Positions 4,628 to 27,272 of a stretch of 36,158 nt of DNA are shown here, one piece after another. The stretch comes from a bacterium (GTDB lineage Bacteria; Fidelibacterota; UBA8477; JABMPR01). Where the stretch lies: positions 1-36,158 of the forward strand of contig JABMPR010000303.1 in the NCBI GenBank assembly GCA_013202895.1. The letters are read 5' to 3'. Made by a program: the position numbers and the translations under genes. The notes under the pieces were generated by a model. The model saw only the letters and a program-made list of their open reading frames with translations. It searched no databases and was not told the origin of the DNA. The stretch's first letter is position 1; every line of letters begins with the position of its first letter.

Positions 4628-4810
4628 TAGGAGGGTTGCTGTCACAAAAGCTAAGACTGAAACACCATAAACTCATAAACTTGCAGAAGAGAGGCGTAGA
4701 CTTATCTTGTTTTGTTCCGGGTACGGGGTGATTGGCATCATCAATGCTATACCTGACCCCTAAGCAAATATTCCTTAGTTTTGAGATCTATGAATTGATG
4801 ATTGGTTGCC

Positions 4811-6805
4811 ATGAAGCAGACTGAAGCACTAAAAAACTTTGAAGCTACCCGCAAAGCGATTGGTTATGTTGAACACCGGAAAGCTACCCCAAAAGACTAT
4901 AAACGCATTGGTTTCAAATCAGGACTCGAAGTCCACCAGCAACTAGATACCAGCAGTAAACTTTTTTGCAGATGTCCCTCGGGAATTTATCACTCAGATG
5001 ATGATTACGACGCAGAAGTCATCCGCCATATGCGTCCCACCCTGAGCGAATTGGGGGAATATGACGGAACTGCACTCATGGAGTTTAAAACTCGCAAAGA
5101 GATTACCTATCGCTTGAACAATACGAGCGCCTGCACATATGAAGTGGATGACACTCCCCCATTTCCCATTGATCGGGAAGCCTTGGAATTTGCGTTGGAG
5201 ATTTGCTTGCTGTCACGTCTGAACATCGTCGGTGAAGTCCATATTACCCGGAAGCAATATTTGGATGGCAGCATTCCCACAGGGTTTCAACGCAGCGCCA
5301 TTCTGGGGGTTGAAGGTGAGATTCTGTTGAGGAATAAAAAGGTGAGACTGATGCAGCTAAGTATCGAGGAAGATTCTTGTCGCGAAATTTCTGATATTGG
5401 CCATAGCAGGATATACAAAACAGATCGTCTTGGAATGCCCCTCATAGAAACGGTTACCCATCCTGATATGGAAACACCTGATGAGTTGGCAGAAGCGGCC
5501 GAATATATACGTTTTCTCAATCGTAGTACGGGTAAAGTCCGCACCGGAATGGGAGCTGCACGGGAAGATGTTAATGTGAGCTGCGCCGGTGGAAGTAGAG
5601 TTGAAATCAAAGGCGTCGCTCATAATAAATGGATACCAGCCCTATCACATAACGAAGTCTTCAGACAGTGGGCACTCCTGAATATCCGCAAATTGATGCT
5701 TGACCGGGGATTAAAAAAAGAGACCTGGAAAATTACTCTTAAACGAATCGATTTTTCCTTGCCGGAACTCCTGGCGCCTCCCCTGAGAAAAAAGCTGGAT
5801 AAAGGCCTAGAGGTGGTTGCCATCAACCTGCCCCAATTAAAAGGCATTCTATCACATTTCACCCAACCCGGGCACCCCTTTGCAGACGAAATAATTCACC
5901 GCTTGAAGGTGATTGCCTGTATTGAAAGACCCAATATGACACACTCCGAGGATTTGGAGCCATCCATTTCGGAAAAAGGACTTCGCAAAATTGCGTCCTG
6001 GCTGGAAGCTGGCGAGGACGATGCTCAAATTATTTTCTGGGGTCCTTCTGCGGATATTCCAACAGCAATCGAGACGATTGAAGAACGGATGCTCATGGCC
6101 TTTGAAGGTGTCCCCAACGAAACCCGTAAATCCTTTGCCGATGGAACTACGATCTTTGAACGAGTGCTTCCCGGCCGTGACAGAATGTATCCCGATACAG
6201 ATTCTCCACCTATTCCCCTGGCGGTTGAATACATCGACAGTTTGGGTCAGAATCTGCCCGTAGATATTTCTGATCGTTTTCAACAGTTAAAGGACTGGGG
6301 CGTACCTGATGATACCTGGAAATATTTGCTGAGCAAAAACATGATCCCACTTCTCGAAAGAATTTGTGATAATTTCACATATACACCAAAATTTATCGGT
6401 GCATTTTTGGGTCATACATTCAAAAACATAGCAGGCAAGAGGCAACGCCACAAAAATTTCCACTACGAAAAGATTTACCAGCTTTTCCGCTATATTAGTG
6501 AGAAAAAAATGGTCCCTGGAATAGCCAAGTTTATGATGCCGGTAATTTATGAGTTTCCTGATATGCAGTTTAGTTCCGTTCTGACCAGTATCCATTTCGA
6601 ACACCGATCCCTAATTGATATTATGGCTCCTGTTGAATTTCTGTATGAGAAGTATCTCGAAAACACTCCAGAACGGGAGTTGGAACCAGCCGTCAACTGG
6701 CTCATGGGGCAGGTGCATCAGCAAGCACTGGGAAATTTAAAGCTATCGGACCTGCGGAAAAAAATAGAACGATTAATCAAAAAAGAGCATACATCTCATG
6801 AGTGA
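4811..6805 (+). CDS. gatE: glutamyl-tRNA(Gln) amidotransferase subunit E
   Basis: GatE recognises mischarged Glu-tRNA(Gln) and, with ammonia supplied by GatD, converts it to Gln-tRNA(Gln) by ATP-dependent phosphorylation and amidation. The protein is about 664 residues. It starts with the GatB/E cradle (GFKSGLEVHQQLDTSSKLFC near residue 35; KQYLDGSIPTGFQR; EDSCREI; DRLGMPLIETVTHPDM; MGAAREDVNVS). It has the GatE-specific stretch GVPNETRKSFADGTTIFERV followed by PGRDRMYPDTDSPPIPL, and the middle region holds the extra domain that GatB lacks. The C-terminus is the helical YqeY-like tail. I use ATG 4811 rather than the upstream in-frame TTG 4802, because alignment starts soon after it; neither has a strong Shine-Dalgarno site. 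It overlaps gatD by 8 bases, so the pair is translationally coupled. GatDE is classically archaeal, so its presence here is notable. Confidence 0.95.
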   Translation: MKQTEALKNFEATRKAIGYVEHRKATPKDYKRIGFKSGLEVHQQLDTSSKLFCRCPSGIYHSDDDYDAEVIRHMRPTLSELGEYDGTALMEFKTRKEITYRLNNTSACTYEVDDTPPFPIDREALEFALEICLLSRLNIVGEVHITRKQYLDGSIPTGFQRSAILGVEGEILLRNKKVRLMQLSIEEDSCREISDIGHSRIYKTDRLGMPLIETVTHPDMETPDELAEAAEYIRFLNRSTGKVRTGMGAAREDVNVSCAGGSRVEIKGVAHNKWIPALSHNEVFRQWALLNIRKLMLDRGLKKETWKITLKRIDFSLPELLAPPLRKKLDKGLEVVAINLPQLKGILSHFTQPGHPFADEIIHRLKVIACIERPNMTHSEDLEPSISEKGLRKIASWLEAGEDDAQIIFWGPSADIPTAIETIEERMLMAFEGVPNETRKSFADGTTIFERVLPGRDRMYPDTDSPPIPLAVEYIDSLGQNLPVDISDRFQQLKDWGVPDDTWKYLLSKNMIPLLERICDNFTYTPKFIGAFLGHTFKNIAGKRQRHKNFHYEKIYQLFRYISEKKMVPGIAKFMMPVIYEFPDMQFSSVLTSIHFEHRSLIDIMAPVEFLYEKYLENTPERELEPAVNWLMGQVHQQALGNLKLSDLRKKIERLIKKEHTSHE

Positions 6806-8183
6806 CATCATATTTCAAGGTTATAAAGGGGCTGCATTGGAGGTACTCAAGAAATTCAATGTCAGGGTCTGGGGTCAAACAGAGATAAAGACGACTCGAG
6901 GGACTTTTACTGGAACCGTATTACCCCGAGCTGAAAATGACGATGACCAGCATATTGTACTAAAAATTGAAACGGGTTATAACATTGGCATTGATATCGT
7001 TACCATTGATAAGATGATTGAAACTGGTTATCAAAAAGCCAACTATAAGATACCTGAGAAGAAATTCCCCTACTCTGACGATAAGCCCAATGTAAAACTT
7101 TTTGGTACGGGTGGTACAATAGCATCCCGTTTGGACTACCGCACAGGTGCCGTTATCCCTGCCTTTTCTCCTGGGGAATTGTATGGCGCTGTTCCGGAAT
7201 TAGCTGATATCTGCAATATTGATACGGAGAAACTTTTTGCTGTTTTTAGTGAGAACATGGGTCCTGATCAATACAAAATTTTAGCTGAAAGTATTGGAAA
7301 AGAGATTGCAAACGGTGCTGATGGAATCATGATCGGTCATGGAACCGATACTCTGCATCACACTGCTGCAGCGCTATCATTTATGGTACAGGATTCACCG
7401 ATACCCATCATTCTGGTAGGTTCACAACGCTCTTCAGATCGACCATCATCAGATGCTGCACTTAATTTAATTCATGCTTCCTATGCAGCAGGTCATGGTG
7501 ATATCGCTGAAACTCTGGTGTGTATGTTTGGACCAACCTCAGATGAATATGGCTTTCTCCACAGGGGAACTCGAGTACGAAAGATGCACAGTTCCTACCG
7601 CTCAACCTTTCGAACCATTGGTGATACTCCCGTCGCCACAGTCAATCGAGACGGAATAAAATTCATTAAGCGTGAGTACAAGCATCGACGAAAAGATAAG
7701 CTAGTAAGAATCCTGCCCTTCTTCAGGGAAAAGGTCACCATGCTCTACTATTACCCACATATGCAGCCCGAGATCATTGATGCGCTAATCGACGCTGGAT
7801 ATAAAGGCATCGTCATAATCGGCACGGGTTTGGGTCATGTGAATCGAGAGCTTTACCCGGCCCTGGAAAGAGCCCGGGATGAAGGAGTCTCAGTCTTTAT
7901 GACACTGCAAACCATCTGGGGATATGCCCATATGTTTGTTTATGACACTGGACGTGATATGTTGGCACTTGGTGTGATTCCCCTGGGAAATATGCTGCCA
8001 GAGGTAGCCTGGGTAAAGTTAGGCTGGGTTCTGGGCCAGACAGAAGATCCGGTGGAAATTAAACAACTCATGCTGACACCGATTAATGACGATATCACGG
8101 TTCGTGAACCCTATAATGGTTATCTTGTCTACCAGGGTGGAGTACCAGAAGTGGAAGGGTTTGTCAGAAATTTCCGTAAATAG
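6798..8183 (+). CDS. gatD: glutamyl-tRNA(Gln) amidotransferase subunit D (asparaginase-like glutaminase)
   Basis: GatD hydrolyses glutamine and channels ammonia to GatE. 461 residues, the usual length for the family, which is longer than simple L-asparaginases. Residues 1-90 form the N-terminal GatD domain (GAALEVLKKFNVRVWGQTEI, then a small beta barrel). The asparaginase domain follows with all four catalytic residues of the family visible: T107 in GTGGTIAS, T183 and D184 in GHGTDTLHHTA, and K262 in RGTRVRKMHSSYRSTF. VGSQRSSDRPSSDAALNL is also typical. The ATG lies inside the end of gatE (8-base overlap). The N-terminal domain and the partner gene exclude a free asparaginase. About 100 bases without a clear terminator separate it from the next gene, so readthrough is possible. 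Confidence 0.95.
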   Translation: MSDIIFQGYKGAALEVLKKFNVRVWGQTEIKTTRGTFTGTVLPRAENDDDQHIVLKIETGYNIGIDIVTIDKMIETGYQKANYKIPEKKFPYSDDKPNVKLFGTGGTIASRLDYRTGAVIPAFSPGELYGAVPELADICNIDTEKLFAVFSENMGPDQYKILAESIGKEIANGADGIMIGHGTDTLHHTAAALSFMVQDSPIPIILVGSQRSSDRPSSDAALNLIHASYAAGHGDIAETLVCMFGPTSDEYGFLHRGTRVRKMHSSYRSTFRTIGDTPVATVNRDGIKFIKREYKHRRKDKLVRILPFFREKVTMLYYYPHMQPEIIDALIDAGYKGIVIIGTGLGHVNRELYPALERARDEGVSVFMTLQTIWGYAHMFVYDTGRDMLALGVIPLGNMLPEVAWVKLGWVLGQTEDPVEIKQLMLTPINDDITVREPYNGYLVYQGGVPEVEGFVRNFRK

Positions 8184-8282: not shown

Positions 8283-9380
8283 ATGATTCCCAATCGCTCT
8301 GAATATCTCAAACAACAGGCTCTCCAGGGTCAAAAGATCATGGGTGTGCTGCCTGCACTTTATCCAAAGGAGTTGCTCTGGGCGTTTGATATCCTGCCGG
8401 CTGAAATTTGGGATCCTCCCGGTGATATAGTGAAAGCGAACAGGCATCTGCAGACTACTATTTGTCCGATTGTAAAGCAAAGTCTGGAATTTATTCTAAC
8501 TGAACCTGGGATTGTAAATGCCGGGTACCTTTTTCCGCATACATGTGACTCTCTTCAAAATCTGGGCTCACAGGTGAAAGATATGATCGGGGTCCCGGTC
8601 CCTGTCTATACATTCTATAATCCCAAGGGCAATTTCAATAAGGCAACCAGAGCTTATTATGGAGATATTCTCAATGAATTTTTGCAGGTTTTGGCTGATG
8701 TTCATGGACCTCCGGATATAGAAAAATTGAGAGCGGCCTGTGAGCTGGGTTTAAAAATCGATGGGCGCCGAATCGAGCTTCAACAGGCCCGTATGACAGA
8801 TCGTCTATCTCTCAATAGTCAACAATATTTTCAACTGATTAGAGCCGCAGAGTTCATGCAGCCTGTTGATTATCTCTACCTCTTAAATCAGGTCGAAATT
8901 CAGGACGAGCCTCTGAAGTCTCATGCTATTCGATTTCTGATCTCAGGTATCCTGCCACCGAATGACATGACCCTATCATTCCTTGATGATCTTGGAATAG
9001 GTATTGTCGCAGAAGATTTGCTGGCTGGGAGCCGCCGAATCCCCATAGCCACCTTGGATCCACCAGCTGATCCCATTGAGTATCTTACGGATCGGTTTTT
9101 TCTTTTGCCACCCTGCTCCACAAAGGCCGGAAGCCTGGATCATCGCCAGCAATACCTTAAAAAGTTGGCTTCTGACAGTAAGGCTCAAGCTGTACTCTTC
9201 AATATTGTTAAATTCTGTGAACCTGAATTATTTGACCATCGATCGTTGGTCAAATCCCTTAAAAACGAGGGGCTACCTGTACTCAGCCTGGAAACCGAAC
9301 TGCTTCCAGGACTCTCCGGTCAAACGCAGACCCGCATCGAGGCCATTGTTGAGATGATGGGTGATGAGGTGTTGGCTTGA
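8283..9380 (+). CDS. 2-hydroxyacyl-CoA dehydratase / benzoyl-CoA reductase-type subunit (BcrC/HgdB-like)
   Basis: 365 residues, soluble. It resembles the D-component family of 2-hydroxyacyl-CoA dehydratases and class I benzoyl-CoA reductases, whose subunits each hold a [4Fe-4S] cluster and act on CoA thioesters after electron transfer from an ATP-driven activator. Visible family features are KIMGVLPALYPKELLWAFDILPAEIWDPP, then candidate cluster cysteines in TTICPIVKQ, FPHTCDSLQNLG and VKFCEPELFDH, and the C-terminal PVLSLETELLPGLSGQTQTRIEA helix entry. The stop codon overlaps the TTG start of the next gene (TTGA), and the activator gene follows, so this is the first gene of a three-gene unit. 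The start ATG has only a weak ribosome-binding site. Substrate cannot be read from sequence. Confidence 0.82.
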   Translation: MIPNRSEYLKQQALQGQKIMGVLPALYPKELLWAFDILPAEIWDPPGDIVKANRHLQTTICPIVKQSLEFILTEPGIVNAGYLFPHTCDSLQNLGSQVKDMIGVPVPVYTFYNPKGNFNKATRAYYGDILNEFLQVLADVHGPPDIEKLRAACELGLKIDGRRIELQQARMTDRLSLNSQQYFQLIRAAEFMQPVDYLYLLNQVEIQDEPLKSHAIRFLISGILPPNDMTLSFLDDLGIGIVAEDLLAGSRRIPIATLDPPADPIEYLTDRFFLLPPCSTKAGSLDHRQQYLKKLASDSKAQAVLFNIVKFCEPELFDHRSLVKSLKNEGLPVLSLETELLPGLSGQTQTRIEAIVEMMGDEVLA

Positions 9381-10699
9381 GTCTTCCCGCAAAACTGAGA
9401 TATCGATTCATGAGGGATGTTGGTGCACCGGCGTTGATGTCTTTTCGGGATTTGACCCGACGAAAATCACGACCCGTTCCCGAAGCCTTTGGACCACCGT
9501 TGAGAAGCAATAAGCGGCTAAAAGAAATCCTAGGCAGGCATTATTTCCTTTCCCGATATGTCCCGGGGGCTAAAAAAGTTGCCTGGGTCACCAGCGGTGC
9601 ACCCGTGGAATTGCTGAGAGCATTTGATTTCTATACAATTTACCCTGAAAATCACTCAGCGCTGGTAGGTGCAAAAAAGAATGGCGCCGAGTACTGCAGT
9701 ATTGCCGAAAGTGACGGCTTCAGTCAGGATCTGTGTTCTTATGCCCGCATCGATTTGGGGCATATGCTTTCGGGAAAATCACCAGCAGGGAAATTACCCC
9801 GGCCAGATTTGCTCTTCTGTTCCAACAATATTTGTCAAACTGTAATCTACTGGTACAAAACCATTGCTCATGAATTAAATATTCCCCTTATCCATTTTGA
9901 TGCCCCCTTTGTTTCCACTAAACAATCAGAAGCTGATGTGCGCTATATGGCTCAACAATTACTGGACATGATTCCCATACTGGAACAAGTCTCTGGGAAT
10001 GTCTTCTATCTAAATGATTTTGAGACAATTCTCAGTCGTTCACAGGAAACTTCGCAGACATGGGGTACCATTCTCCAGACCATGCGAGCAAAACCTGCCC
10101 CGATGACCATCTTTGATGCTTTTGGGCATCTTGCTCCTATCGTATCATTGAGAGGATTACCTGTAGCACATGACTATTATAACATCCTCCTTGAGGAGCT
10201 TGAGGAGCGTGTAGCACTGGGAATAGGGGCGATTACAGAGGAACGTTATCGATTGATCTGGGACAACATTGCAGTCTGGTACAAAGTCAGGTTTCTGGCA
10301 ACTTTTTTCGCGGAGCGTAAGATGAATTTTGTCACGGCTACCTATACCAATGCCTGGGCAGAGACCACGTGTCATCTGGATGTCAAAGATCCCTGGTCAT
10401 CAATGGCAAAAACCTATGGACAAATTATTCTTAATAATAATCTTAAACACCGGATGGGTTTGATGCGTGATATGATTAAAAATTTTGAAGTTGATGGTAT
10501 GGTCATGCATTCTACCCGCAGCTGTAAGCCATATTCAGTAGGACAGTTTGATTTGCGAAGAGCTCTGGGTGCTGAGTTAAATCTCCCGGCAGTAATCATT
10601 GATGCAGATATTGCCGATGAGCGGGTGTGGTCAGAGCAACAAATACAAACCAGACTGGAAGCCTTTTGCGAAACGCTGGAGGATGCTGCTCATGTCTAA
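9377..10699 (+). CDS. 2-hydroxyacyl-CoA dehydratase / benzoyl-CoA reductase-type large subunit (BcrB/HgdA-like)
   Basis: 440 residues, the partner of the preceding subunit. Family features are KKVAWVTSGAPVELLRAFDFYTIYPEN near the start of the core, DLCSYARIDLG, PDLLFCSNNICQTVIYWYK and HSTRSCKPYSVGQFDLRRAL, giving conserved cysteines for one [4Fe-4S] cluster, and the closing IDADIADERVWSEQQIQTRLEAF. About 60 extra N-terminal residues, rich in Arg and Lys, precede the core. Translation probably starts at TTG 9377, whose TTGA overlaps the previous stop; an ATG twelve codons in is the alternative. The gene overlaps the activator by 8 bases. The two dissimilar subunits plus activator match a complete dehydratase/reductase heterodimer rather than a lone paralogue. 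Confidence 0.82.
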   Translation: MSLPAKLRYRFMRDVGAPALMSFRDLTRRKSRPVPEAFGPPLRSNKRLKEILGRHYFLSRYVPGAKKVAWVTSGAPVELLRAFDFYTIYPENHSALVGAKKNGAEYCSIAESDGFSQDLCSYARIDLGHMLSGKSPAGKLPRPDLLFCSNNICQTVIYWYKTIAHELNIPLIHFDAPFVSTKQSEADVRYMAQQLLDMIPILEQVSGNVFYLNDFETILSRSQETSQTWGTILQTMRAKPAPMTIFDAFGHLAPIVSLRGLPVAHDYYNILLEELEERVALGIGAITEERYRLIWDNIAVWYKVRFLATFFAERKMNFVTATYTNAWAETTCHLDVKDPWSSMAKTYGQIILNNNLKHRMGLMRDMIKNFEVDGMVMHSTRSCKPYSVGQFDLRRALGAELNLPAVIIDADIADERVWSEQQIQTRLEAFCETLEDAAHV

Positions 10700-11483
10700 T
10701 GCTTTATTCGCTGGTGTGGATGTTGGATCACTAAGTACTGATGTAGTACTCATCGATTCAGCGGGGGCAACCAGGGCGGAAGTTGTTTTTCCAACTGGCA
10801 TAAATGGTGCAGAGGCGGCTCAAAAAGCCTATGACCTGGCTTTGGAACAGGGCGGGATATCACGGGATCAAATTAAGGCTGTGATTGCCACTGGCTATGG
10901 TCGAGCAGCTGTTGCTTTTGCTTCGGGGAAGACCACTGAAATCAGTTGTCATGGCGTCGGTGCGCATCATCTCTTCCCTGACACGGGAACGGTGATCGAT
11001 ATTGGTGGACAGGATAGTAAGGTAATACAAGTAGATGGTCGTGGGCGCATGCTTGATTTTAGTATGAATGATAAATGCGCTGCCGGAACAGGTCGTTTTC
11101 TGGAAGTGATGGCAGCCCAGCTGGAGATGAATCTGAATGAGTTGAGTGATCCCAGGCATGTTTCCGGTGAGTCAGTCCAAATTAGCAGCACCTGTACGGT
11201 ATTCGCTGAGAGCGAAGTCATTTCATTGCTGGCTAAGCATACCCCCAGAGAGCAAATTATAAATGGATTGCAGCGTTCCATTGTAAACCGTATCTGGAGT
11301 ATGGTTATTAGTATTGGGATACAAGGTGAGATTACCATTACTGGTGGTGTCGCCAAAAACAAGGGTCTGGTCACTGTACTGGAAGAAAAACTGGGAATGC
11401 ACCTGAATGTCCCCGATAACCCTCAGACGGTGGGAGCGCTGGGCGCGGCACATATCGCCCAACGAGGTTTTAAAGACGAGTAG
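10692..11483 (+). CDS. ATP-dependent [4Fe-4S] activator of 2-hydroxyacyl-CoA dehydratase (HgdC/BcrA/BadF family)
   Basis: About 263 residues, the normal size for the single-domain activators. It is an actin/hexokinase-fold ATPase: phosphate-1 loop GVDVGSLSTDVVLID at the N-terminus, TGYGRAAVAFASGK, the second phosphate loop TVIDIGGQDSKVIQVD, and the adenosine motif ITGGVAKNKGLV. The two cluster cysteines that bridge the homodimer are in NDKCAAGTGRFLE and SSTCTVFAESEVISLLA. It would hydrolyse ATP to push one electron at very low potential into the dehydratase or reductase encoded just upstream. I start it at ATG 10692, inside the previous gene, because the protein then begins MSNALFAGVDVG as in the family; the longer upstream reading frame is not homologous. 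Such activators are oxygen-sensitive, implying at least a partly anaerobic lifestyle or niche. Confidence 0.9.
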   Translation: MSNALFAGVDVGSLSTDVVLIDSAGATRAEVVFPTGINGAEAAQKAYDLALEQGGISRDQIKAVIATGYGRAAVAFASGKTTEISCHGVGAHHLFPDTGTVIDIGGQDSKVIQVDGRGRMLDFSMNDKCAAGTGRFLEVMAAQLEMNLNELSDPRHVSGESVQISSTCTVFAESEVISLLAKHTPREQIINGLQRSIVNRIWSMVISIGIQGEITITGGVAKNKGLVTVLEEKLGMHLNVPDNPQTVGALGAAHIAQRGFKDE

Positions 11484-17869: not shown

Positions 17870-17893
17870 TAAAGACTATAACTTGAGGAAGTG

Positions 17894-19840
17894 ATGAAAG
17901 ACAAAAAGATTAGCTGGTGGCCGGTTTTGGAGGATAAAGATTTTCTGGTTGAAGGTCGAGTGATGACGGTAACTGCAGATACCAAACAAATTTGTCTTAC
18001 ACACCATGAGGGTAAATTATGCGCACTCGATAACCATTGCCCTCACCAGGGAGGTCCCCTGGGCGAGGGGAGCATCGAAAAAGGACTCCTCCGATGTCCC
18101 TGGCATGGATGGGATTACCATCCCTGCAGCGGTAAGGCTCCTGGTTTTGATGACGGTGTAGCGACCTATCCCGTGAAAGTTGAGGGAAAGCAGGTATATG
18201 TTGGCTTGCAAGAGGCAATACCTCATGAGACCACAATTGCGGATGTCATGATCCAAACCATGGTGCAAGCTGGGGTAAATACAGTATTTGGTATGGTGGG
18301 TCATTCAAATTTGGGACTGGCTGATGCCATGCGTAGACAGGAAACCTCGGGCAATCTAAAATACATTGGCATTCGCCATGAGGGCGCAGCGGCGTTTGCA
18401 GCTTCAGCCTATGGTAAATTGACAGGTCGGCCAGCTGTCTGTTTTGCCATTGCTGGACCTGGTTCCACAAACATGTTTACAGGTTTATGGGATGCGAAGG
18501 TCGATCGTGCACCACTTTTAGCCCTCACCGGGCAAATTGAAACCCAGGTTATTGGAACGGGGACTTTTCAGGAGGTAGATTTACTCCAAGCATTTCAAAG
18601 TGTAGCAAATTTTAATCACCGTGTTCATGTGGACTCCAAGCATCCAGAATTAATGATCCAGGCTATCAGACACGCCATCCTCAACCGTGAACCCTCCCAT
18701 TTGACTTTTCCTGATGAAGTCCAGGTGACTCAGGTATCTGATCCTGACCTGGCAGATCCTCTTCAACGAATAACTAAACAAACTATCTCACCGCCTCCAG
18801 AACAATTAGAACTGGCCGTTTCGCTAATTCGAGCAGCAAAACGCCCTGTGATTGTGCTTGGGCACGGAGCCCTGTTCCATATGGAAAGTGTTATCGCATT
18901 AGCAGAGAGCCTCCTGTGCCCGGTGATTACAACATTCAAGGGCAAGGGTCTCATTTCAGATAAACATGAGCTTGCTGGTGGGGTATTGGGTCGGAGCGGA
19001 ACACCCATTGCTTCTCATTTCATGAACGAAAGCGATTTGCTACTGGTCATCGGAGCCTCCTTTTCAAAGCACACTGGTATCACCCCCAAAAAGCCCACAA
19101 TCCAGATCGATTTTGATCCCTTGGCTTTGAGCAAGTTTCATGAGATTGACTGCCCGGTGTGGGGCGAAATATCCATAACTGTGGCACTTATCCGGGAACA
19201 GTTGGGTTCCGGGATCAAAGCTCTTGACCATCGGCAAGAGCTGGCAGAGCGATGGAAGATCTGGCGTCAAGAAAAATCCCGTCGTAGACAGGAAGATCTG
19301 GGGCAGGGAATCAGCTCTAGCCTGATTTTCCAGTGCTTATCTGAAACTGCCCCCGAAAATGCCGTGATTTGTGTTGATGTAGGCAACAATGCCTATTCCC
19401 TGGGTCGCTATTTTGAATCCCAGTCGCAATCCTTTCTCATGTCAGGCTATTTGGGATCTATCGGTTTTGCACTTCCTGCAGGTTTAGGAGCCTGGGCGGC
19501 AGTTGGTGATAAACGACCAGTTGTTGTTGTGACTGGAGATGGTGGATTGTGCCAATACCTTGCGGAACTTACAACTATGGTTAAGTATAGGATGCCCATA
19601 AAGGTTGTGGTTTTGAACAACAATGAACTTGGTAAAATTTCAAAAGAACAACGCTCGGGTGAGTTTCCAGTTTGGGGCACTGACCTGGTAAATCCAGATT
19701 TTGCAGTATTAGCCAATTCTATTGGCGCAATGGGCTTCACGGTCTCTGAGAAGTCTGACTTGGCAAGCCTGTTAAAGCAGCTATTTCTGCAACCCGGTCC
19801 AGCCCTGCTTGAGATAAAAAGTGATGTCTCACTGATTTAA
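17894..19840 (+). CDS. fusion of Rieske [2Fe-2S] domain with ThDP-dependent acetolactate synthase/pyruvate oxidase-like enzyme
   Basis: About 648 residues in one uninterrupted frame. Residues 5-105 are a Rieske ferredoxin domain with a complete cluster motif: CPH at 49-51 and CPWH at 68-71. From about residue 110 starts a full three-domain ThDP enzyme. The Pyr domain has the catalytic glutamate region IRHEGAAAFAASAYGKLTGR and AIAGPGSTNMFTGLWDAKVDRAPLL; a central domain follows (KRPVIVLGHGA, CPVITTFKGKG, VIGASFSKHTG). The PP domain has the ThDP-Mg motif GDGGLCQ near 548, ending in VVLNNN. Closest relatives are acetolactate-synthase, pyruvate oxidase and 2-oxoacid decarboxylase types. A tethered Rieske cluster suggests electrons from a 2-oxoacid or its enamine leave through iron-sulfur; that is inference. 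ATG 17894 is preferred over GTG 17891 because GAGG lies 5 bases before it. Monocistronic. Confidence 0.88.
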   Translation: MKDKKISWWPVLEDKDFLVEGRVMTVTADTKQICLTHHEGKLCALDNHCPHQGGPLGEGSIEKGLLRCPWHGWDYHPCSGKAPGFDDGVATYPVKVEGKQVYVGLQEAIPHETTIADVMIQTMVQAGVNTVFGMVGHSNLGLADAMRRQETSGNLKYIGIRHEGAAAFAASAYGKLTGRPAVCFAIAGPGSTNMFTGLWDAKVDRAPLLALTGQIETQVIGTGTFQEVDLLQAFQSVANFNHRVHVDSKHPELMIQAIRHAILNREPSHLTFPDEVQVTQVSDPDLADPLQRITKQTISPPPEQLELAVSLIRAAKRPVIVLGHGALFHMESVIALAESLLCPVITTFKGKGLISDKHELAGGVLGRSGTPIASHFMNESDLLLVIGASFSKHTGITPKKPTIQIDFDPLALSKFHEIDCPVWGEISITVALIREQLGSGIKALDHRQELAERWKIWRQEKSRRRQEDLGQGISSSLIFQCLSETAPENAVICVDVGNNAYSLGRYFESQSQSFLMSGYLGSIGFALPAGLGAWAAVGDKRPVVVVTGDGGLCQYLAELTTMVKYRMPIKVVVLNNNELGKISKEQRSGEFPVWGTDLVNPDFAVLANSIGAMGFTVSEKSDLASLLKQLFLQPGPALLEIKSDVSLI

Positions 19841-20679: not shown

Positions 20680-20702
20680 TTAACTTTTCTCCTGCGTAAG
20701 TC

Positions 20703-20741
20703 AAAAGCACCCTATTTAAGGTTCTATTTCAGGGTGCTTTT
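20703..20741 (+). terminator. rho-independent terminator after yceI-like gene
   Basis: AAAAGCACCCT (20703-20713) pairs perfectly with AGGGTGCTTTT (20731-20741), an 11-base stem with a 17-base loop; the stem ends in T residues and TTATTTT follows. Only 37 bases remain before the next start codon, so the promoter of the SDR-egtB operon must lie in or around this hairpin, or that operon depends on readthrough. Confidence 0.85.
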
Positions 20742-20778
20742 GTTATTTTCAACATTCAATTAACATTGAAAGGGAACC

Positions 20779-21456
20779 ATGAATCAAAAGTTTAGTAACT
20801 GTGTTATCACTGGTGTTTCTGGAGCAACCGGGTCAGCCATTCGTTCCAGATTGTTGGAAAATGGAGCGACTGTCATCGGTTCCTTTCGATCAACCCATGA
20901 TACTCAAGAGTTGCTAAAAATTGGTTCAAACGACTATCAAATCGGAATGAACCCTAAAGATCCTAGCTCAATTAAATCTGCAATAAATATTATTTCCCAG
21001 GAGTTACATCAAATACACGTCTGGATAAATGTCGTCGGGGGTTTTGAAATGGGATCTGCCATAGAAGACTATCCCGCAGAAGTTTGGGAACGTATGTGGT
21101 CTTTGAATTATCTAACAGTTCTTAATTCAACCCAGGCTATAATACCTCACTTCAAATTGTTTCAAACAGGTCGCTTGATCAATTTCGGGTCTGCTGCTGT
21201 CGCAGATGGGATGCCTTATGCAGGACCCTATCTAGTAAGCAAGGCAGCCGTCCAGGCTTTGACAAAAGCCACCGCTGCTGAATTAAAAGGAGATATTACC
21301 TGCAATGCCATCCTGCCGACCATCATTGATACGCCTACAAATCGTAACGCAATGCCGGATGCAGACTATAGTGAATGGGTGACACCGGAGTCTATTGCAA
21401 CTCAAGTCATTAGTTTCATTTCAAATATAAGCAATGGTAGATTGATACGCATATGA
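20779..21456 (+). CDS. short-chain dehydrogenase/reductase, first gene of the egt operon
   Basis: 225 residues, classical SDR size. The N-terminal nucleotide loop is VITGVSGATGSAIRS (TGxSGATG, a variant of TGxxxGxG). The NNAG position is replaced by NVVGG in VWINVVGGFEMG. The catalytic serine lies in LINFGSAAVADGMPYAG, and Tyr and Lys in PYLVSKAAVQALTKATAAELK, so the active site is intact. The C-terminus shows the usual NAILPTIIDTPTNRNAMPDADYSEW stretch. A good AAGGGAA site precedes the ATG. Its stop overlaps the egtB ATG (ATGA), so the two are co-translated. SDRs are not part of the known ergothioneine route; it may handle a precursor or derivative, or simply be hitch-hiking. Cofactor preference cannot be fixed. 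Confidence 0.85.
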   Translation: MNQKFSNCVITGVSGATGSAIRSRLLENGATVIGSFRSTHDTQELLKIGSNDYQIGMNPKDPSSIKSAINIISQELHQIHVWINVVGGFEMGSAIEDYPAEVWERMWSLNYLTVLNSTQAIIPHFKLFQTGRLINFGSAAVADGMPYAGPYLVSKAAVQALTKATAAELKGDITCNAILPTIIDTPTNRNAMPDADYSEWVTPESIATQVISFISNISNGRLIRI

Positions 21457-22739
21457 GTCAACACAAGCCACTTCAAGTTTCAAGACCGGAGCTGATTAAA
21501 AAATATGGTTCCGTGCGCGCATTTACTGAGTATCTCTGTGAGCCCTTGGAGCTAGAAGATTATGTGATCCAGTCCATGCATGATGTCAGTCCCTTACGCT
21601 GGCACCTGGCTCACACCGCCTGGTTTTTTGAAACCTTCCTGCTGAAACCTCATCTTGCAGGATATCAGACACCTAATGAGTTGTATGATTTTCTGTTCAA
21701 CTCCTATTATAATGCCGTTGGAACACAATATCCCCGTCCTAAAAGGGGACTTCTCAGTCGACCTACAGTTGCCCAGATTTTTGATTATCGTCAGCATGTT
21801 GACCTGGAAATGCTGAGCCTTCTGGAAAAGCTGGACGATGATAAACTGGAGGAGTTGAGCCCTTTTATAGAGCTGGGTTTACAACACGAGCAACAGCATC
21901 AGGAATTAATGCTAACCGACTTAAAACACATCTTTTTTCAAAACCCTCTTTATCCAGCATATACTCCTGCCCTGGACAATCTCAATAATCAGGGGATCGA
22001 CCCACAGGCTTGGCAATCCTTTCCAGGTGGTCAAATCAAGGTTGGGTATGATGGATCAGGATTTGCCTATGATAATGAATCACCAAGTCATGAGGTTCTT
22101 CAGCAAGACTTCGAGATCAGCAATCGACTGGTTACCAACGCAGAATACCTGGCTTTTATCGATGATGGCGCTTATGGACAGGCTCATTATTGGCTCTCTG
22201 ATGGCTGGACCTTGATCAATGGTAAAAATTGGCAGTCACCCCTGTACTGGATCAAACAGGACCAGCACTGGTTTGAATTTACGCTCTCGGGTTTGCAAAC
22301 ACTGGATATAAATGCCCCCGTCTCACATTTGAGCTATTATGAGGCGGATGCTTTTGCCAATTGGGCAGGAGCTCGACTCCCTGGCGAATTTGAATGGGAG
22401 CAGGCAGTGCAACATTTGAAAATTGAAGGAAATTTTGTGGAAAGCGGCAGCTACCAACCCCATGCTTCCACACCATCGACTCCCGGACAGCTACATCAAT
22501 TTTATGGTGATGTCTGGGAATGGACCCGAAGTCCTTACACTCCCTATCCCGGTTTTAAGGCAGCATCTGGTGCCATCGGTGAATACAATGGAAAATTCAT
22601 GTCCAACCAGATGGTCTTAAAGGGGGGTTCTTGTGTGAGCAGCAGGAATCATCTGCGTGCGACTTACCGCAACTTTTTTTACCCGCATTCACGTTGGCAA
22701 TTTACGGGTTTGCGGCTAGCCAGGGATATTGACAGCTAG
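21453..22739 (+). CDS. egtB: ergothioneine biosynthesis protein EgtB (hercynine sulfoxide synthase)
   Basis: Non-haem iron enzyme that joins hercynine to a thiol (gamma-Glu-Cys or Cys) with oxygen, giving the hercynyl sulfoxide. 428 residues. The N-terminal DinB-like domain carries all three iron ligands: H51 in PLRWHLAHTAWFFETFL, and H145 and H149 in LQHEQQHQELMLTDLKH. The C-terminal formylglycine-generating-enzyme-like domain shows FEISNRLVTNAEYLAFIDDG, VSHLSYYEADAFANWAGARL, GDVWEWTRSPYTPYPGF, LKGGSC and the closing HLRATYRNFFYPHSRWQFTGLRLARD. No egtA (Glu-Cys ligase) or egtC is nearby, so a Cys-using or otherwise simplified route is plausible, as in many bacteria with only EgtB and EgtD. 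The start overlaps the SDR stop by 4 bases. Confidence 0.93.
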   Translation: MSQHKPLQVSRPELIKKYGSVRAFTEYLCEPLELEDYVIQSMHDVSPLRWHLAHTAWFFETFLLKPHLAGYQTPNELYDFLFNSYYNAVGTQYPRPKRGLLSRPTVAQIFDYRQHVDLEMLSLLEKLDDDKLEELSPFIELGLQHEQQHQELMLTDLKHIFFQNPLYPAYTPALDNLNNQGIDPQAWQSFPGGQIKVGYDGSGFAYDNESPSHEVLQQDFEISNRLVTNAEYLAFIDDGAYGQAHYWLSDGWTLINGKNWQSPLYWIKQDQHWFEFTLSGLQTLDINAPVSHLSYYEADAFANWAGARLPGEFEWEQAVQHLKIEGNFVESGSYQPHASTPSTPGQLHQFYGDVWEWTRSPYTPYPGFKAASGAIGEYNGKFMSNQMVLKGGSCVSSRNHLRATYRNFFYPHSRWQFTGLRLARDIDS

Positions 22740-22821
22740 GGAAACCAATGGATATTTACTTTCGCTATCCTGGTTTTATAGGACTGACATCTCTTTGTAA
22801 ATACCGATAATGGAGAATCAA

Positions 22822-23685
22822 ATGAATACACCTACGACAACCTGGATCACAATTTCACGACCTTCCGACGATCGCCTTTTTGAGGCTAGAGCTCAACTGC
22901 ACCAGGCCGCTCAATTATTAGCGGCAACCGGTATCTCCTTTCTCACTGCCCGAACTGACGATAGTCATACTGCCATCTTGTGGTCAAGTGGGGAAAATCA
23001 TTTCTTAAGCCAGACTTTTGGAGATAATCAATCGTATCAAGTGACTTTGAATCCAAGTGATCTGGTCCTTACTGTTACAAACAATGGATCAAGTATTTAT
23101 CAGCTCGAGCTCAATGGAATCAGCCTGAGACAGGCGGCAGCAAATCTGCAATTGGTTTTAGATGGATATGGCTTTTCGAAAGATAACTTCACCATGAACA
23201 AGCACTACGAACTGCCCGACTATCCAGACCGCTGGGAGACCGCTTTTGATACAACAGATGTAGAGGCTTTTGAAGTCTTGGTGAATAGTTATGCCAATGC
23301 GTTTTCGCTATTCAGTGGCATAAAAAGCTCGGAGCCAGCTGCCAGTGATTTATTGATCTGGCCTCATCATTTTGACCTGGCAATCCTGATCACAATGGAT
23401 ACAGATGCACAAGGAAATCTTAGCAAATCAATTGGTGTTGGACTTTCGCCTGGTGACGGAAGCTACACAACACCCTATTATTATATCACGAATTGGCCAT
23501 ATCCATCAGAGGATATTAAGCTCCCTACATTGTTTAGCCGCGGAAGCTGGCATACAGCAGGTTGGACGGGCATGGTTTTAGCTCTGGATCCCATCACCTC
23601 AGTATCCACACCTGACGATCAGAAGAGGATAGTTGAGACCTTTCTTGATGAGGCGCTTGCGCTTGCAAAGACCATAAGTCAATAG
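22822..23685 (+). CDS. unknown protein resembling DUF5996, embedded in the egt operon
   Basis: About 287 residues, soluble, no signal peptide. I do not recognise a function. The layout resembles DUF5996 proteins: an early helix (RLFEARAQLHQAAQLLAATG), a beta-rich middle, a second helical part (FEVLVNSYANAFSLFSGIKSS), then LLIWPHHFDLAILITMDTD, GVGLSPGDGSYTTPYYYITNWPYP, GSWHTAGWTGMVLAL and a final helix after a proline-rich stretch. The HHFD, SPGD and WHTAGW motifs with conserved His, Asp and Trp could form a ligand or metal site. I choose ATG 22822 because GGAG (22812-22815) lies six bases before it; the upstream ATG 22810 contains that site. It sits 83 bases after egtB and 14 bases before the ABC ATPase, so it is part of the operon by position. 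The DUF5996 match is from memory of motifs. Confidence 0.6.
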   Translation: MNTPTTTWITISRPSDDRLFEARAQLHQAAQLLAATGISFLTARTDDSHTAILWSSGENHFLSQTFGDNQSYQVTLNPSDLVLTVTNNGSSIYQLELNGISLRQAAANLQLVLDGYGFSKDNFTMNKHYELPDYPDRWETAFDTTDVEAFEVLVNSYANAFSLFSGIKSSEPAASDLLIWPHHFDLAILITMDTDAQGNLSKSIGVGLSPGDGSYTTPYYYITNWPYPSEDIKLPTLFSRGSWHTAGWTGMVLALDPITSVSTPDDQKRIVETFLDEALALAKTISQ

Positions 23686-23699
23686 TATAGACTAATAAT

Positions 23700-24452
23700 A
23701 TGATCCAATTAGATCAAATCAGTAAAAGTTTCGGCGGGCAGGAAGTAATTCATGACCTCAGCCTTGAAATTCCTGAAGAAAAAACTGTCGTGCTTATTGG
23801 ACCCAGCGGTTGTGGAAAATCGACCCTACTGCGATTGATGATTGGAATCCTGTGGCCGGACAAAGGTAGAATCTCTCTTTTGCGTAAGGAATTGACATCC
23901 CAAAATATTGAATCACTTCGGCAGCAGGTAGGATTTGTACTCCAGGATGGCGGATTGTTTCCACACTTGACCGCCGCCCAAAATATTTGTCTTATGGCAA
24001 AGTACCTGCAACGTGACCCGGCCTGGATTCAATCCAGATTGGCTGAGTTGTGTGCCTTGAGCCGCTTGTCTCTAGATCTATTGGAGCGTTATCCACGACA
24101 GCTCTCCGGCGGTCAGGTTCAGCGTGTGGCGCTCATGCGGGCGCTCATGCTTGATCCTCAGGTTCTTTTTCTAGACGAACCCCTGGGAGCATTAGACCCC
24201 TTGCATAGAGTAAGTCTTCAAGACGATATGAAATCCATTTTTAGTGAATTAAAGAAGACGGTGATCATGGTAACCCATGATATGGGTGAAGCAGCATCTT
24301 TAGCGGATCTGATTGTTATCATGCGCGAAGGTCGTATCGTCCAATACGATAATATGGCCACCCTGGTAACCCAGCCCGCTGATCCATTTGTCGTTGAATT
24401 TATCAATGCCCAGCGCAAACCATGGCAGCATTTGGAAGATCAAATCAGATGA
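23700..24452 (+). CDS. ABC transporter ATPase, quaternary-amine/EgtV type
   Basis: 250 residues, one nucleotide-binding domain. Walker A GPSGCGKST (about 33-41), Q-loop FVLQDGGLFPHLT, signature LSGGQVQRVALMRAL, Walker B VLFLDEPLGALDP, and the H-loop VTHDMGEAASLADLIVIM are all intact. The closest group is the OpuCA/ProV-type ATPases for betaine, choline or carnitine, which includes EgtV, the ergothioneine importer ATPase; the C-terminal CBS domains of osmoregulated OpuCA/ProV are absent, as expected for a non-osmotic transporter. It overlaps the fused permease by 4 bases (ATGA), so both are made together. Placement between egtB and egtD makes ergothioneine or hercynine the first substrate guess. 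Confidence 0.88.
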   Translation: MIQLDQISKSFGGQEVIHDLSLEIPEEKTVVLIGPSGCGKSTLLRLMIGILWPDKGRISLLRKELTSQNIESLRQQVGFVLQDGGLFPHLTAAQNICLMAKYLQRDPAWIQSRLAELCALSRLSLDLLERYPRQLSGGQVQRVALMRALMLDPQVLFLDEPLGALDPLHRVSLQDDMKSIFSELKKTVIMVTHDMGEAASLADLIVIMREGRIVQYDNMATLVTQPADPFVVEFINAQRKPWQHLEDQIR

Positions 24453-25960
24453 TGCTTCAAAAATCTATATTGCAGCTTCTGTTGCTGAGCATCCTATCTG
24501 GGTTGGTGTTTGCTTCTGCAGATGCCAATATTAAAGTTGGGTCAAAAAAATTCACAGAATCAGTAATTCTGGGTGAGATAATAAGCCAACATTTGTCAAG
24601 CCATGGAATTGCTGCCGTTCATCAGGATCAACTTGGGGGAACACGACTGCTCTGGAAAGCACTTTTAGGGGGCGATATTGATATCTATCCTGACTATAGT
24701 GGTACCATTATCCATGAGATTCTGCAAGCAGAGGATATTGATAATCATGCAGAATTAAAGTCCGCTCTTGAAAAAACTGGCGTACTCATGGCGAATCCCC
24801 TGGGGTTCAATAACACTTACGCTCTCGGGGTATCCCAGGCAACGGCCCAAAAATATCAGCTTAGAAAAATTAGTGATCTGAAAAATCTTCCAGACTTGAG
24901 ATTTGGGTTTACAAACGAATTTATGGATCGTGAAGACGGCTGGCCAAGTCTTCGAAATTATTACCAACTTCCCCAGAAAACGGTTCGAGGTCTGGATCAT
25001 GATCTGGCCTATAAGGGTCTGGAAGCTGAATCCATTGATCTTATTGATCTGTATTCAACCGATGCGGAGATAGCCTATTATCAACTCCATATTCTGGATG
25101 ATGATCTGAAACACTTCCCTGAATATTCCGCGGTTATTTTGTACAGGGCAGAACTTGAAGACCGGAATCCGCAAATAAAATCATTGCTGGCTCAACTTTC
25201 AGGTTCCATTTCAAATACGGAGATGGTTCGCATGAATTCTGCTGTCAAACTTGATGGCAATTCAGAAGCACTGGTGGCTCACAACTTCTTGAAGCAAAAA
25301 TTCAATGTTTCTTCTCTTGTTGAAAACTCAACTTTACTTAGCAGGTTATTAAAGACGGGAAGCGAGCATCTACTCCTGGTAATTCTGTCTTTGAGCGCTG
25401 CCATCCTGGTGGCAATACCCCTGGGAATCTGGGGGGCACGGAGCCCCGCAGCCGGGCAAATCATTCTCAGCACAGTGGGCATCATTCAAACTATCCCCTC
25501 TCTGGCATTATTGGTTTTCATGATCCCTTTGTTGGGGATTGGTGGACCTCCAGCTCTAGTGGCACTGTTTCTATACAGTCTGCTCCCAATTGTGCGGAAT
25601 ACTTTGAGTGGTTTAAGCGATATTCCCCTTGATATCCGTGAATCAGCACTGGCACTTGGCTTACCGCCTGCAGCCCGCTTAAAGCTTGTTGAAATACCCC
25701 TGGCAACCAGATCGATTCTGGCTGGAATAAAAACCTCTGCCGTTATCAACGTGGGGACAGCTACACTTGGAGCCTTGATCGGTGCCGGTGGATTTGGTCA
25801 ACCCATTCTAACGGGGATTCGCTTGGATGATACCGGCTTAATCCTTGAAGGTGCCATACCTGCCGCCGTCCTCGCATTATTGGTTCAGTGGGGCTTTGAT
25901 CTGCTCGAACGCTTGATTCTTTCACCTGGACTACAAATCTCTCAGGAATCACACTCATGA
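24449..25960 (+). CDS. fused substrate-binding/permease subunit of quaternary-amine (EgtU/OpuC-like) ABC transporter
   Basis: About 503 residues. After a signal peptide (MMLQKSILQLLLLSILSGLVFASA) comes an OpuCC/ProX-type binding domain from about residue 25 to 285: IKVGSKKFTESVILGEIISQ, GGTRLLWKALLGGDIDIYPDYSGT, and YKGLEAESIDLIDLYSTDAEI. From about 300 to the end is an OpuCB/ProW-type permease with six helices and the EAA-like loop (IPLDIRESALALGLPPAARLKLVEIPLATRSILAG) and GTATLGALIGAGGFGQPI. The order is binding domain first, permease second; in EgtU of Streptococcus and Helicobacter and in Lactococcus OpuABC the permease comes first. ATG 24449 is chosen: it forms an ATGA overlap with the ATPase stop and directly precedes the signal peptide. 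It overlaps egtD by 4 bases. Domain class says uptake of a trimethylammonium compound. Confidence 0.88.
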   Translation: MMLQKSILQLLLLSILSGLVFASADANIKVGSKKFTESVILGEIISQHLSSHGIAAVHQDQLGGTRLLWKALLGGDIDIYPDYSGTIIHEILQAEDIDNHAELKSALEKTGVLMANPLGFNNTYALGVSQATAQKYQLRKISDLKNLPDLRFGFTNEFMDREDGWPSLRNYYQLPQKTVRGLDHDLAYKGLEAESIDLIDLYSTDAEIAYYQLHILDDDLKHFPEYSAVILYRAELEDRNPQIKSLLAQLSGSISNTEMVRMNSAVKLDGNSEALVAHNFLKQKFNVSSLVENSTLLSRLLKTGSEHLLLVILSLSAAILVAIPLGIWGARSPAAGQIILSTVGIIQTIPSLALLVFMIPLLGIGGPPALVALFLYSLLPIVRNTLSGLSDIPLDIRESALALGLPPAARLKLVEIPLATRSILAGIKTSAVINVGTATLGALIGAGGFGQPILTGIRLDDTGLILEGAIPAAVLALLVQWGFDLLERLILSPGLQISQESHS

Positions 25961-26952
25961 TTGAAACCATTTCAAAACCTGTCATAACTTTATCTCATGC
26001 TAATCAGGAAAATCCGGCCTACGTCTTCGGAAGAGATGTATCAGCTGGATTGAATTCATCACCCAAGCGACTTTCTTCGGTCTATTTTTACGATGGAAAA
26101 GGATCTCGAATATTTGAACAAATCTGTGATCTTGATGAATATTATTTAACCCGGAAAGAAACAGAAATCCTGCGTAAATCTGCCCATGATATCATTGGCT
26201 CCTTACAGCATAACACACATCTCATTGAACTAGGCAGCGGCAGCTCAACCAAGACACGGATTCTGTTGGAAGCAGCCCTGGCTCAGTTTACCAGGACACG
26301 CTATTCACCCATAGATGTGTCATCAGAAATGCTTACCAAATCGGTGAATGAATTGAGCCGCCGCTATCCTCAATTGCAAATAGAAGCTGTTGCAGATCTT
26401 TATGAAAAAGGTTTGGAGAATATACTTAGAAGTGAGGATACGCCCGTTTGCATCATGTGGCTGGGGTCCAGTATCGGCAATCTATCCAGACAGGAGGCCA
26501 GCGAATTTCTGCTCCATGTTCGATCAGATTTAGATGCTGATGATTCCGTGCTTTTGGGGATTGATCTGCGAAAAGATGCCAGTATTCTTGAACCTGCATA
26601 TGATGATGCCGCAGGTGTGACCGCTGCTTTTAATTTGAATCTGCTAGATCGAATCAATCGAGAGGTAGGCGGGCATTTTAGGACTGAAAAATTCCACCAT
26701 CAAGCAGTTTACAATGTTGTTGAAGGTCGTATCGAAATGTATCTGGTTAGTGAAATTGATCAAGAAGTCAGAATTGACAAGCTTGATACAAATATCCACC
26801 TCAACAAAAACGAAAAAATATTGACAGAATATTCATATAAATATTCACAATCGGAGATAATTAATCTCGCCCATTCGTCCGGATTTCAGTTGCAAAAGCA
26901 ATGGCTGGATGAGTCTGGCTGGTTTAGTCTCAATTATTTTAAAACGAAATGA
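25957..26952 (+). CDS. egtD: L-histidine N-alpha-methyltransferase EgtD
   Basis: Trimethylates the alpha-amino group of histidine with three SAM molecules to give hercynine, the betaine precursor of ergothioneine. 331 residues, matching the family. The SAM-binding motif is LIELGSGSSTKTRILLEAA (about 89-107), the SAM acidic region is SPIDVSSEML, and IMWLGSSIGNLSRQEA holds the Asn (175) expected to position the histidine. Tyr215 in LEPAYDDAAGVTAAFNLNLL and the Glu-x-Ser pair at 291 and 293 (LTEYSYKYS) correspond to the histidine-carboxylate and imidazole contacts known for mycobacterial EgtD. The N-terminal LSSVYFYDGKGSRIFEQICDLDEYYLTRKE block is also characteristic. It overlaps the transporter by 4 bases, so biosynthesis and transport are translated in one unit. 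Confidence 0.95.
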   Translation: MIETISKPVITLSHANQENPAYVFGRDVSAGLNSSPKRLSSVYFYDGKGSRIFEQICDLDEYYLTRKETEILRKSAHDIIGSLQHNTHLIELGSGSSTKTRILLEAALAQFTRTRYSPIDVSSEMLTKSVNELSRRYPQLQIEAVADLYEKGLENILRSEDTPVCIMWLGSSIGNLSRQEASEFLLHVRSDLDADDSVLLGIDLRKDASILEPAYDDAAGVTAAFNLNLLDRINREVGGHFRTEKFHHQAVYNVVEGRIEMYLVSEIDQEVRIDKLDTNIHLNKNEKILTEYSYKYSQSEIINLAHSSGFQLQKQWLDESGWFSLNYFKTK

Positions 26953-26990
26953 CTACGCGTTAACATGACGCCCCTTAAAAGGAAATCAAT

Positions 26991-27272
26991 ATGAAAGCAA
27001 TATGGAAAAATAAAGTTATCGCAGAGAGTAATGAAACGGTCTTTATCGAAGGCAATCACTACTTTCCAGTATCATCAGTCAATCAGGAATATTTAAAGGA
27101 AAGCGCGACACACACAACTTGTGCCTGGAAGGGGATTGCCAGCTATTACCACATTGAAACAGAAGGACTTGTAAATAATGATGCTGCCTGGTATTACCCT
27201 AGCCCGTCAGATGCAGCGCAGCCTATAAAAGATCATATTGCCTTTTGGCGCGGAGTTCAAGTCGTAGAATGA
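26991..27272 (+). CDS. DUF427-family small protein
   Basis: 93 residues, soluble. It matches DUF427: MKAIWKNKVIAESNETVFIEGNHYFPVSSV, then the conserved CAWKGIASYYHI stretch, AAWYYPSPSDAAQPIKDHIAFWRGVQV. The conserved Cys, Trp, Lys and Tyr residues of the family are present. No biochemical role is established for it to my knowledge. It lies 38 bases after egtD with no terminator between, so it is probably the last gene of the ergothioneine operon. Only four bases separate it from the stop of the convergent PLP gene, and I see no terminator hairpin there. Confidence 0.82.
   Translation: MKAIWKNKVIAESNETVFIEGNHYFPVSSVNQEYLKESATHTTCAWKGIASYYHIETEGLVNNDAAWYYPSPSDAAQPIKDHIAFWRGVQVVE

Follow-up and report, generated by a model that had tools for sequence, protein, structure and literature searches.

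An operon joining ergothioneine synthesis genes with a candidate ergothioneine importer in a Fidelibacterota genome

Introduction

In the classical mycobacterial cluster, ergothioneine synthesis is encoded by egtABCDE. EgtB of the Chloracidobacterium type takes cysteine as the direct donor, and EgtA and EgtC would therefore be dispensable beside it. For uptake, the closest described system is EgtU of Streptococcus pneumoniae (spd_1642-1643), in which, according to the passages of PMC9732360 on its architecture, an OpuAC-type substrate-binding domain (SBD) is fused to a permease and accompanied by a separate ATPase and an aromatic cage is present. The same passages placed its relatives nearly exclusively in Firmicutes and described uptake in organisms that do not make the compound; in the portions of the cited papers used here, bacterial importers of ergothioneine serve organisms that take it from outside. 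In this work, an operon combining both kinds of genes was explored. Its seven genes lie in contig JABMPR010000303.1 of a Fidelibacterota genome (assembly GCA_013202895.1), and the whole analysed stretch of 36,158 nucleotides is referred to as the window.

The operon shares EgtB and EgtD with the mycobacterial cluster and adds an importer, an SDR gene, a DUF5996-like gene and DUF427 (Table 1). The importer has the same three parts as pneumococcal EgtU, namely the fused SBD and permease, the separate ATPase and the aromatic cage, but it stands beside EgtB and EgtD. With a probability of about 0.6, we regard the locus as an operon that serves both to produce ergothioneine and to keep it, and whose importer takes up ergothioneine or a close relative. 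What the analysis showed directly was the gene content, the family membership of EgtB and EgtD, the packing of the genes, conserved linkage, co-occurrence and pocket residues.

Co-occurrence of the Transporter with EgtD

The co-occurrence of the transporter with EgtD was evaluated in 245 genomes of the phylum. A transporter match (E ≤ 1e-20) was present in 25 of them from eight families; in G010 it covers only the C-terminal part, next to a contig end. EgtD was present in 31 (30 over the cut-off and G033, where the gene is cut at a contig end). EgtD occurred in 24 of the 25 transporter genomes versus 7 of the 220 others (Fisher p 6e-26; apart from the tree below, co-occurrence counts were uncorrected for kinship). 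When G028 and G033, which carry a permease-first relative, were counted as non-carriers, the values were 22/23 versus 9/222 (p 4e-23). Seven genomes have EgtD but no counted transporter, and two of them hold parts of one: a remnant in G002, and the ATPase with the start of the fusion gene at a contig end in G242.

The arrangement varied between families. The transporter lies apart from egtB and egtD in family f3. In family f8 (G028 and G033; loci L050:7469-12803 and L051), an ATPase and a permease-first transporter, which lacks the histidine described below as His193, adjoin egtD; hence, egt genes of a single phylum seem to have been joined by two different transporters of the superfamily. Locus L050 also holds egtB and an EgtC-like amidotransferase gene, and in G028 such a gene (class II) was located between egtB and egtD. 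As a separate observation, the EgtD of G208 and G209 (L087 and L088) lies downstream of egtB in an open frame of about 650 residues, roughly twice the usual length, which may represent a fusion.

Linkage beyond the phylum was examined in the 80 best-ranked loci of a multi-phylum scan, which were selected for similarity to the window rather than drawn at random and some of which end at contig ends. egtD was on the fetched stretch in 32 of the 80, within 3.4 kb of the transporter genes, and egtB in 26; an egtD placed at random in a 3.5-Mb genome would lie within 9 kb of a given locus with a chance of about 0.5%. For the other 48 loci, 47 genomes were searched (L157 was left out), and an EgtD match was found in 36 (34 over the cut-off and two pieces at contig ends). 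The preliminary description of the window had assumed that importers and synthesis usually occur in separate organisms. Because most of the examined carrier genomes have an EgtD match, this assumption fails for the present transporter clade. Conserved linkage with egt genes in relatives, the absence of which had been named as half of its refutation, was found in the phylum and in several others.

In a sample of 203 gammaproteobacterial genomes, a full-length transporter match was present in 13 (12 with the centre left out). EgtD at 190 bits or more, a threshold set after the list had been seen, occurred in 10 of the 12 full-length carriers versus 63 of the 190 others (p 0.0008). Genomes with weaker paralogues only had EgtD in 5 of 13 cases.

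The gene orders and strands vary between the linked loci. In the cultured, presumably environmental strain Panacagrimonas perspica DSM 26377 (L114), for example, egtB, egtD, the ATPase and the fusion follow one another on a single strand. A quick tree was built from 94 aligned rows, that is, the 80 best-matching loci and 16 of the window's phylum (window included), minus L128 and L144, whose extracted stretches were short. The label 'linked' changed 23 times on this tree, with at least 10 changes forced by well-supported branches, and the mean for shuffled labels was 31. The linkage has been gained or lost repeatedly and is partly inherited. Besides the window's phylum, the linked rows belonged, by their record names, to Planctomycetota, Thermodesulfobacteriota, Acidobacteriota, Pseudomonadota, Verrucomicrobiota, Methylomirabilota and Ignavibacteriota.

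A survey of neighbouring genes covered 123 of 167 open reading frames (ORFs) from 41 loci; 13 shorter than 270 bases, 9 missing from the listing and 22 removed by hand (mostly short) were left out. No common family emerged among these 123, and the 25 of 79 families listed included aldehyde dehydrogenase and glycosyltransferase (5 each), SDR and DUF427 (3 each) and DUF5996 (1). One verrucomicrobial locus (L139:4055-5002) holds, near its egtD-transporter cluster, a MerR regulator gene with B12-binding domains, presumably CarH-like. No title or abstract opening was found that reported egtB or egtD linked to an EgtU-like transporter; preprints and the main Helicobacter pylori EgtUV paper were outside the scope of this search.

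Domain Order and Binding Pocket of the Transporter

The AlphaFold2 model of the window's SBD had a mean pLDDT (predicted local distance difference test) of 94.2. Its Foldseek neighbours included Lmo1422 (4z7e, TM score 0.91), which we take to be BilEB, H. pylori EgtU (8dp6, 0.89) and AfProX of Archaeoglobus fulgidus (3mam, 0.89). BilEB binds ergothioneine according to a passage of PMC9732360. With Lmo1422, H. pylori EgtU and AfProX all among the neighbours, the fold leaves the ligand undecided.

The domain order was opposite to that of EgtU as given in the same paper: the permease is N-terminal and the SBD C-terminal (within residues 232-506) in the pneumococcal protein, whereas the SBD comes first in the window's fusion (Table 1). 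The pocket residues were mapped onto the pneumococcal domain (SpEgtUC) via alignments and the residues named in passages of PMC9732360. The window retains the cage residues N339, Y341, Y419 and Y443 of SpEgtU, the contacts K242, T296, E375 and R379, and D381. However, it lacks the three specificity residues: G244 is replaced by Phe44, F293 by Tyr92 and Y337 by Phe129, all of the AfProX type. The passages concerned called Gly244 invariant in EgtU and described F293 and Y337 as a switch relative to AfProX. Phe, Tyr and Phe occupied these positions in 94 of the 94 clade rows, and the pneumococcal signature was present in none. Therefore, if the clade imports ergothioneine, searches based on this signature would miss it.

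The preliminary description had proposed an EgtUV-like importer joined to egtB and egtD. The joining was found to be conserved well beyond this genome, but the name was not borne out in its strict sense. Because the determinants of PMC9732360 are absent and the domain order is reversed, 'EgtUV-like' is to be taken as an analogy of function and not as a passed test of EgtU membership. According to that paper, relatives in other subclusters lack the SpEgtU determinants, and the H. pylori transporter has a lower affinity. H. pylori EgtU (8dp6 and 8dp7), to whose 8dp6 structure the window's SBD is 33-34% identical, also lacks G244, F293 and Y337 and has Ser, Tyr and Phe instead, with N339, Y341, R379 and Y443 present. 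It differs from the window in its Ser at 244, Asp at 375, Phe at 419 and Ile at the position of His193. The 8dp7 entry is nevertheless titled 'bound to EGT'; thus, the failed SpEgtU test weakens the case for EgtU membership in the sense of PMC9732360 and not the case for ergothioneine binding. Furthermore, a T274G mutant of SpEgtUC was deposited with ergothioneine (9egi), and the window has Gly at 274. AfProX (1sw1, 1sw2 and 3mam) shares Phe 244, Tyr 293 and Phe 337 with the window.

His193 (numbered from 24422) was invariant in all 94 rows, whether egt-linked or unlinked. Five solved relatives were aligned at this position, and they have Pro (Lmo1422, AfProX and SpEgtUC), Ile (H. pylori EgtU) or Met (iAChSnFR). 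His193 is the first residue of a helix in the AlphaFold2 model, and it may contribute to recognition of that portion of the ligand which derives from histidine. As judged from these sequences, the reversed domain order, the ProX-type aromatic cage and the invariant His193 set the clade apart from pneumococcal EgtU. One subgroup of the clade, largely from Betaproteobacteria, carries Arg at 243 together with Asn at 274, and EgtD is still found in most of its genomes. In the f17 and f18 transporters (L047, L048, L049, L091 and L092), the cage Tyr equivalent to SpEgtU Y341 was Trp in five of five.

Ergothioneine Synthesis Enzymes

The window's EgtB matched 6o6l, 6qki and 8qf6 with 492 bits over residues 15-426 of 428, and the mycobacterial-type 4x8b with 146 bits. 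These three entries are presumably EgtB of Chloracidobacterium thermophilum (6o6l is labelled 'Cabther'), and the window's EgtB is closer to this type II kind than to mycobacterial EgtB. Selenoneine instead of ergothioneine was rejected as a product since the SenA model reached 340 bits, under its cut-off of 420, versus 577 against 360 for EgtB. Searches of the window's genome, which is 87.7% complete, reached no more than 35 bits for EgtC (TIGR03442, cut-off 218.65) and 61 bits for EgtE (TIGR04343, cut-off 400); matches at such weak levels were also found in 10/14 and 14/14 control genomes, respectively.

Operon Layout and Boundaries

According to the ORF positions and the Pfam and NCBIfam matches, the seven genes lie on one strand from 20779 to 27272 in the order given in Table 1, tightly packed as originally described. 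The spacings between them were, in order, -4, +70, +14, -31, -4 and +38 bases. Several 4-base overlaps had been reported, and two were found (SDR/EgtB and fusion/EgtD). A third appears, as an ATGA overlap in place of the -31 spacing, if the fusion starts at its Met10 (24449) instead of 24422. Met10 was kept in three relatives of the genus, which were all those whose alignment extends there, and position 1 was Leu in them; on this comparison, 24449 is the likely start. The seven genes would be co-transcribed.

Table 1. Positions of the operon genes and associated features in the window.
Feature	Coordinates	Strand	Basis and remarks
Terminator-like hairpin with T-rich tail	20702..20750 (stem to 20742)	+	-17.3 kcal/mol; z -3.55; 0/200 shuffles as stable; between YceI gene and SDR
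SDR, variable operon member	20779..21456	+	PF00106, 100 bits
EgtB, sulfoxide synthase, Chloracidobacterium kind	21453..22739	+	TIGR03440, 577 bits (cut-off 360)
DUF5996-like	22810..23685	+	PF19459, 19.6 bits (below gathering score 25)
ABC (ATP-binding cassette) ATPase, EgtV-like, 250 residues	23700..24452	+	PF00005, 122 bits; TIGR01186 proV, 198 bits (below cut-off 327)
EgtU-like fusion, SBD (residues 36-292) then permease (residues 331-498)	24422..25960	+	PF04069, 203 bits; PF00528, 67 bits
His193 codon (numbering from 24422)	24998..25000	+	Codon checked in sequence
EgtD, histidine N-alpha-methyltransferase	25957..26952	+	TIGR03438, 360.2 bits (cut-off 290.9)
DUF427 (NTP_transf_9), last gene	26991..27272	+	PF04248, 107.9 bits (gathering score 22.1)

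The hairpin likely marks the boundary between the YceI gene and the operon; a pattern scan missed it because its loop is larger than the 8 bases allowed by the scan. Downstream of DUF427, the genes are on the opposite strand. Promoter-like matches over the whole region showed no excess (17 versus 13.5 in shuffled sequence, standard deviation 3.8).

Proposed Function and Alternative Readings

In the proposed route, EgtD would trimethylate histidine to hercynine, and EgtB would join hercynine to a cysteine-type thiol with O2. A pyridoxal-phosphate lyase encoded apart from the operon probably finishes ergothioneine. The fusion and the ATPase would form an ABC importer with ergothioneine as its main ligand, hercynine or another histidine betaine being less likely. 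By recapturing leaked ergothioneine or taking that of neighbours, the importer could keep the intracellular pool. The ligand, the physiological use, the role of His193 and the lyase are the parts that we infer.

Several observations weigh against the making and retaining of ergothioneine. The ergothioneine determinants of PMC9732360 are replaced by the Phe, Tyr and Phe of AfProX, which binds betaines. His193, being invariant, does not tell egt-linked from unlinked members, and other pocket residues, tried as discriminators, gave no clean separation of the 32 linked from the 48 unlinked loci. EgtD was missing from 11 of the 79 checked genomes of the best-80 sample, all among the 47 unlinked ones, and from one of the 25 transporter genomes of the phylum (G038, 69% complete); many of the genomes are incomplete metagenome-assembled ones. 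The gammaproteobacterial enrichment was weak at the strict EgtD cut-off (8/12 versus 58/190, p 0.02). The 23 label changes on the tree were fewer than the shuffled mean, and this clustering implies that part of the linkage is inherited. In addition, neither EgtC nor EgtE was over the cut-off in the 87.7%-complete genome, so that the last step of synthesis is left with no candidate at that level.

The most serious alternative is a general osmoprotectant importer for glycine betaine, proline betaine or choline, linked to egt genes because compatible solutes and ergothioneine are needed under the same stress, or because part of the role of ergothioneine is that of a betaine solute. The AfProX-type residues at 244, 293 and 337 agree with it, as do the Pfam and NCBIfam domain names, which refer to betaine transport, and the OpuB/OpuC, YehZ/OsmF and ProX proteins among the sequence and fold neighbours. 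However, a general osmolyte importer would not be expected to track EgtD as closely as was found in the phylum (24/25 versus 7/220), and the weaker gammaproteobacterial paralogues do not track it (5/13). Moreover, AfProX, the sole betaine binder aligned at the position of His193, has Pro there. We consider this alternative unlikely.

Import of hercynine (or histidine) as a precursor for EgtB, and not of ergothioneine, appears less probable still. In the relevant passage of PMC9516567, Escherichia coli with a different ergothioneine synthase was fed better by external trimethylhistidine than by internal EgtD, and the window departs from SpEgtU at three residues linked there to ergothioneine affinity. 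Nevertheless, precursor import would be redundant because the EgtD of the same operon makes hercynine from histidine, and among the best 80 loci, some of them cut by contig ends, EgtD stood beside the transporter more often than EgtB (32 versus 26). Finally, a linkage that merely reflects common ancestry or operon drift and involves no functional coupling would fit the same gene order in close relatives, the separate transporter of f3 and the clustered label, but it is highly improbable given the linked copies in several phyla with differing orders and strands, the at least 10 label changes on supported branches and the different, permease-first transporter adjoining egtD in f8.

Re-uptake of ergothioneine by this transporter is probable, and the repeated pairing with synthesis genes in many other bacteria speaks against a clean split into makers and scavengers. 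Whether the rows described here represent a large clade of hitherto unrecognised ergothioneine importers (SBD first, ProX-type cage, invariant His193), partnered mainly with producers across many phyla, is in our estimate evenly balanced. If so, the pathway in these bacteria would normally include the recapture of ergothioneine made by the cell itself, and ergothioneine recognition would rest on a pocket unlike that of pneumococcal EgtU. A dedicated importer in producers of many phyla would mean that the ergothioneine pool is worth recapture or trade and that producers are possibly consumers too. It might also be of use in the production of ergothioneine by fermentation, in which both loss to the medium and renewed uptake are important. 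His193 provides a hypothesis that concerns a single residue.

Accessory Genes and Variation within the Genus

The accessory genes were compared among the 12 EgtD-positive genomes of the window's genus. The DUF5996-like gene, so called because its PF19459 score stays below the gathering score, occurred together with the ATPase and the fusion in 9 of the 12 (the window, G004, G007, G008, G009, G011, G012, G013 and G018), and in G010 a contig end interrupts the locus. At the same place, G015 has SDR, egtB, egtD and DUF427, with the DUF5996-like gene, the ATPase and the fusion all absent. G002 has lost the same three genes apart from the final 49 codons of the fusion, and its egtB carries an internal deletion and a broken frame; an assembly error is possible. 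From the losses in G015 and G002, the DUF5996-like gene, the ATPase and the fusion behave as one removable module. At L052:4224-5096, in a genome of the same genus, a decayed egtB and a transporter remnant lie between an intact-looking SDR gene and egtD.

DUF427 adjoins EgtD in all 12 genomes (truncated at a contig end in G007 and G011). The window, G002 and G015 have SDR next to egtB, the copies of the latter two being close relatives, and a fragment was found in G007. There was no room for SDR between YceI and egtB in G004, G008, G009, G011, G012, G013 and G018, and G010 was uninformative. Within the genus, the DUF5996-like gene travels with the transporter, and SDR and DUF427 are independent of it. 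A second, distant case is an acidobacterium (L134), in which a full DUF5996 gene (444 bits) adjoins an ATPase-fusion-egtB-egtD cluster. DUF427 was matched in 7 of the 80 best transporter loci.

The preliminary description had suggested that the system perhaps also remodels ergothioneine or hercynine. Such a role of the accessory genes found no support: SDR and DUF427 accompany egtB and egtD without the transporter in G015, and the model of the DUF5996-like protein gave no function. The AlphaFold2 model (pLDDT 72.8, from 10 rows) matched no PDB fold at E ≤ 0.001, and the sequence had a single, non-significant match in the PDB (E 1.7). DUF427 and DUF5996, both named as being of unknown function, nevertheless gain a pathway context.

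Other Features of the Window

Elsewhere in the window, positions 4802-8183 encode an archaeal-type Glu-tRNA(Gln) amidotransferase, GatE-GatD, in an apparently bacterial genome (GatE 461 bits, cut-off 456; GatD 484 bits, cut-off 324), and GatD was over the cut-off in 24 of the 245 genomes of the phylum. Immediately downstream of GatD (8283-11483) lie genes for two HGD-D type dehydratase subunits and a BadF-type activase. An ORF of 1241 residues at 810-4535 encodes an MFS/spermidine-synthase fusion with C-terminal TPR repeats. At 17891-19840, a single 649-residue ORF combines a Rieske [2Fe-2S] domain with a complete thiamine-diphosphate enzyme resembling pyruvate oxidase and acetolactate synthase.

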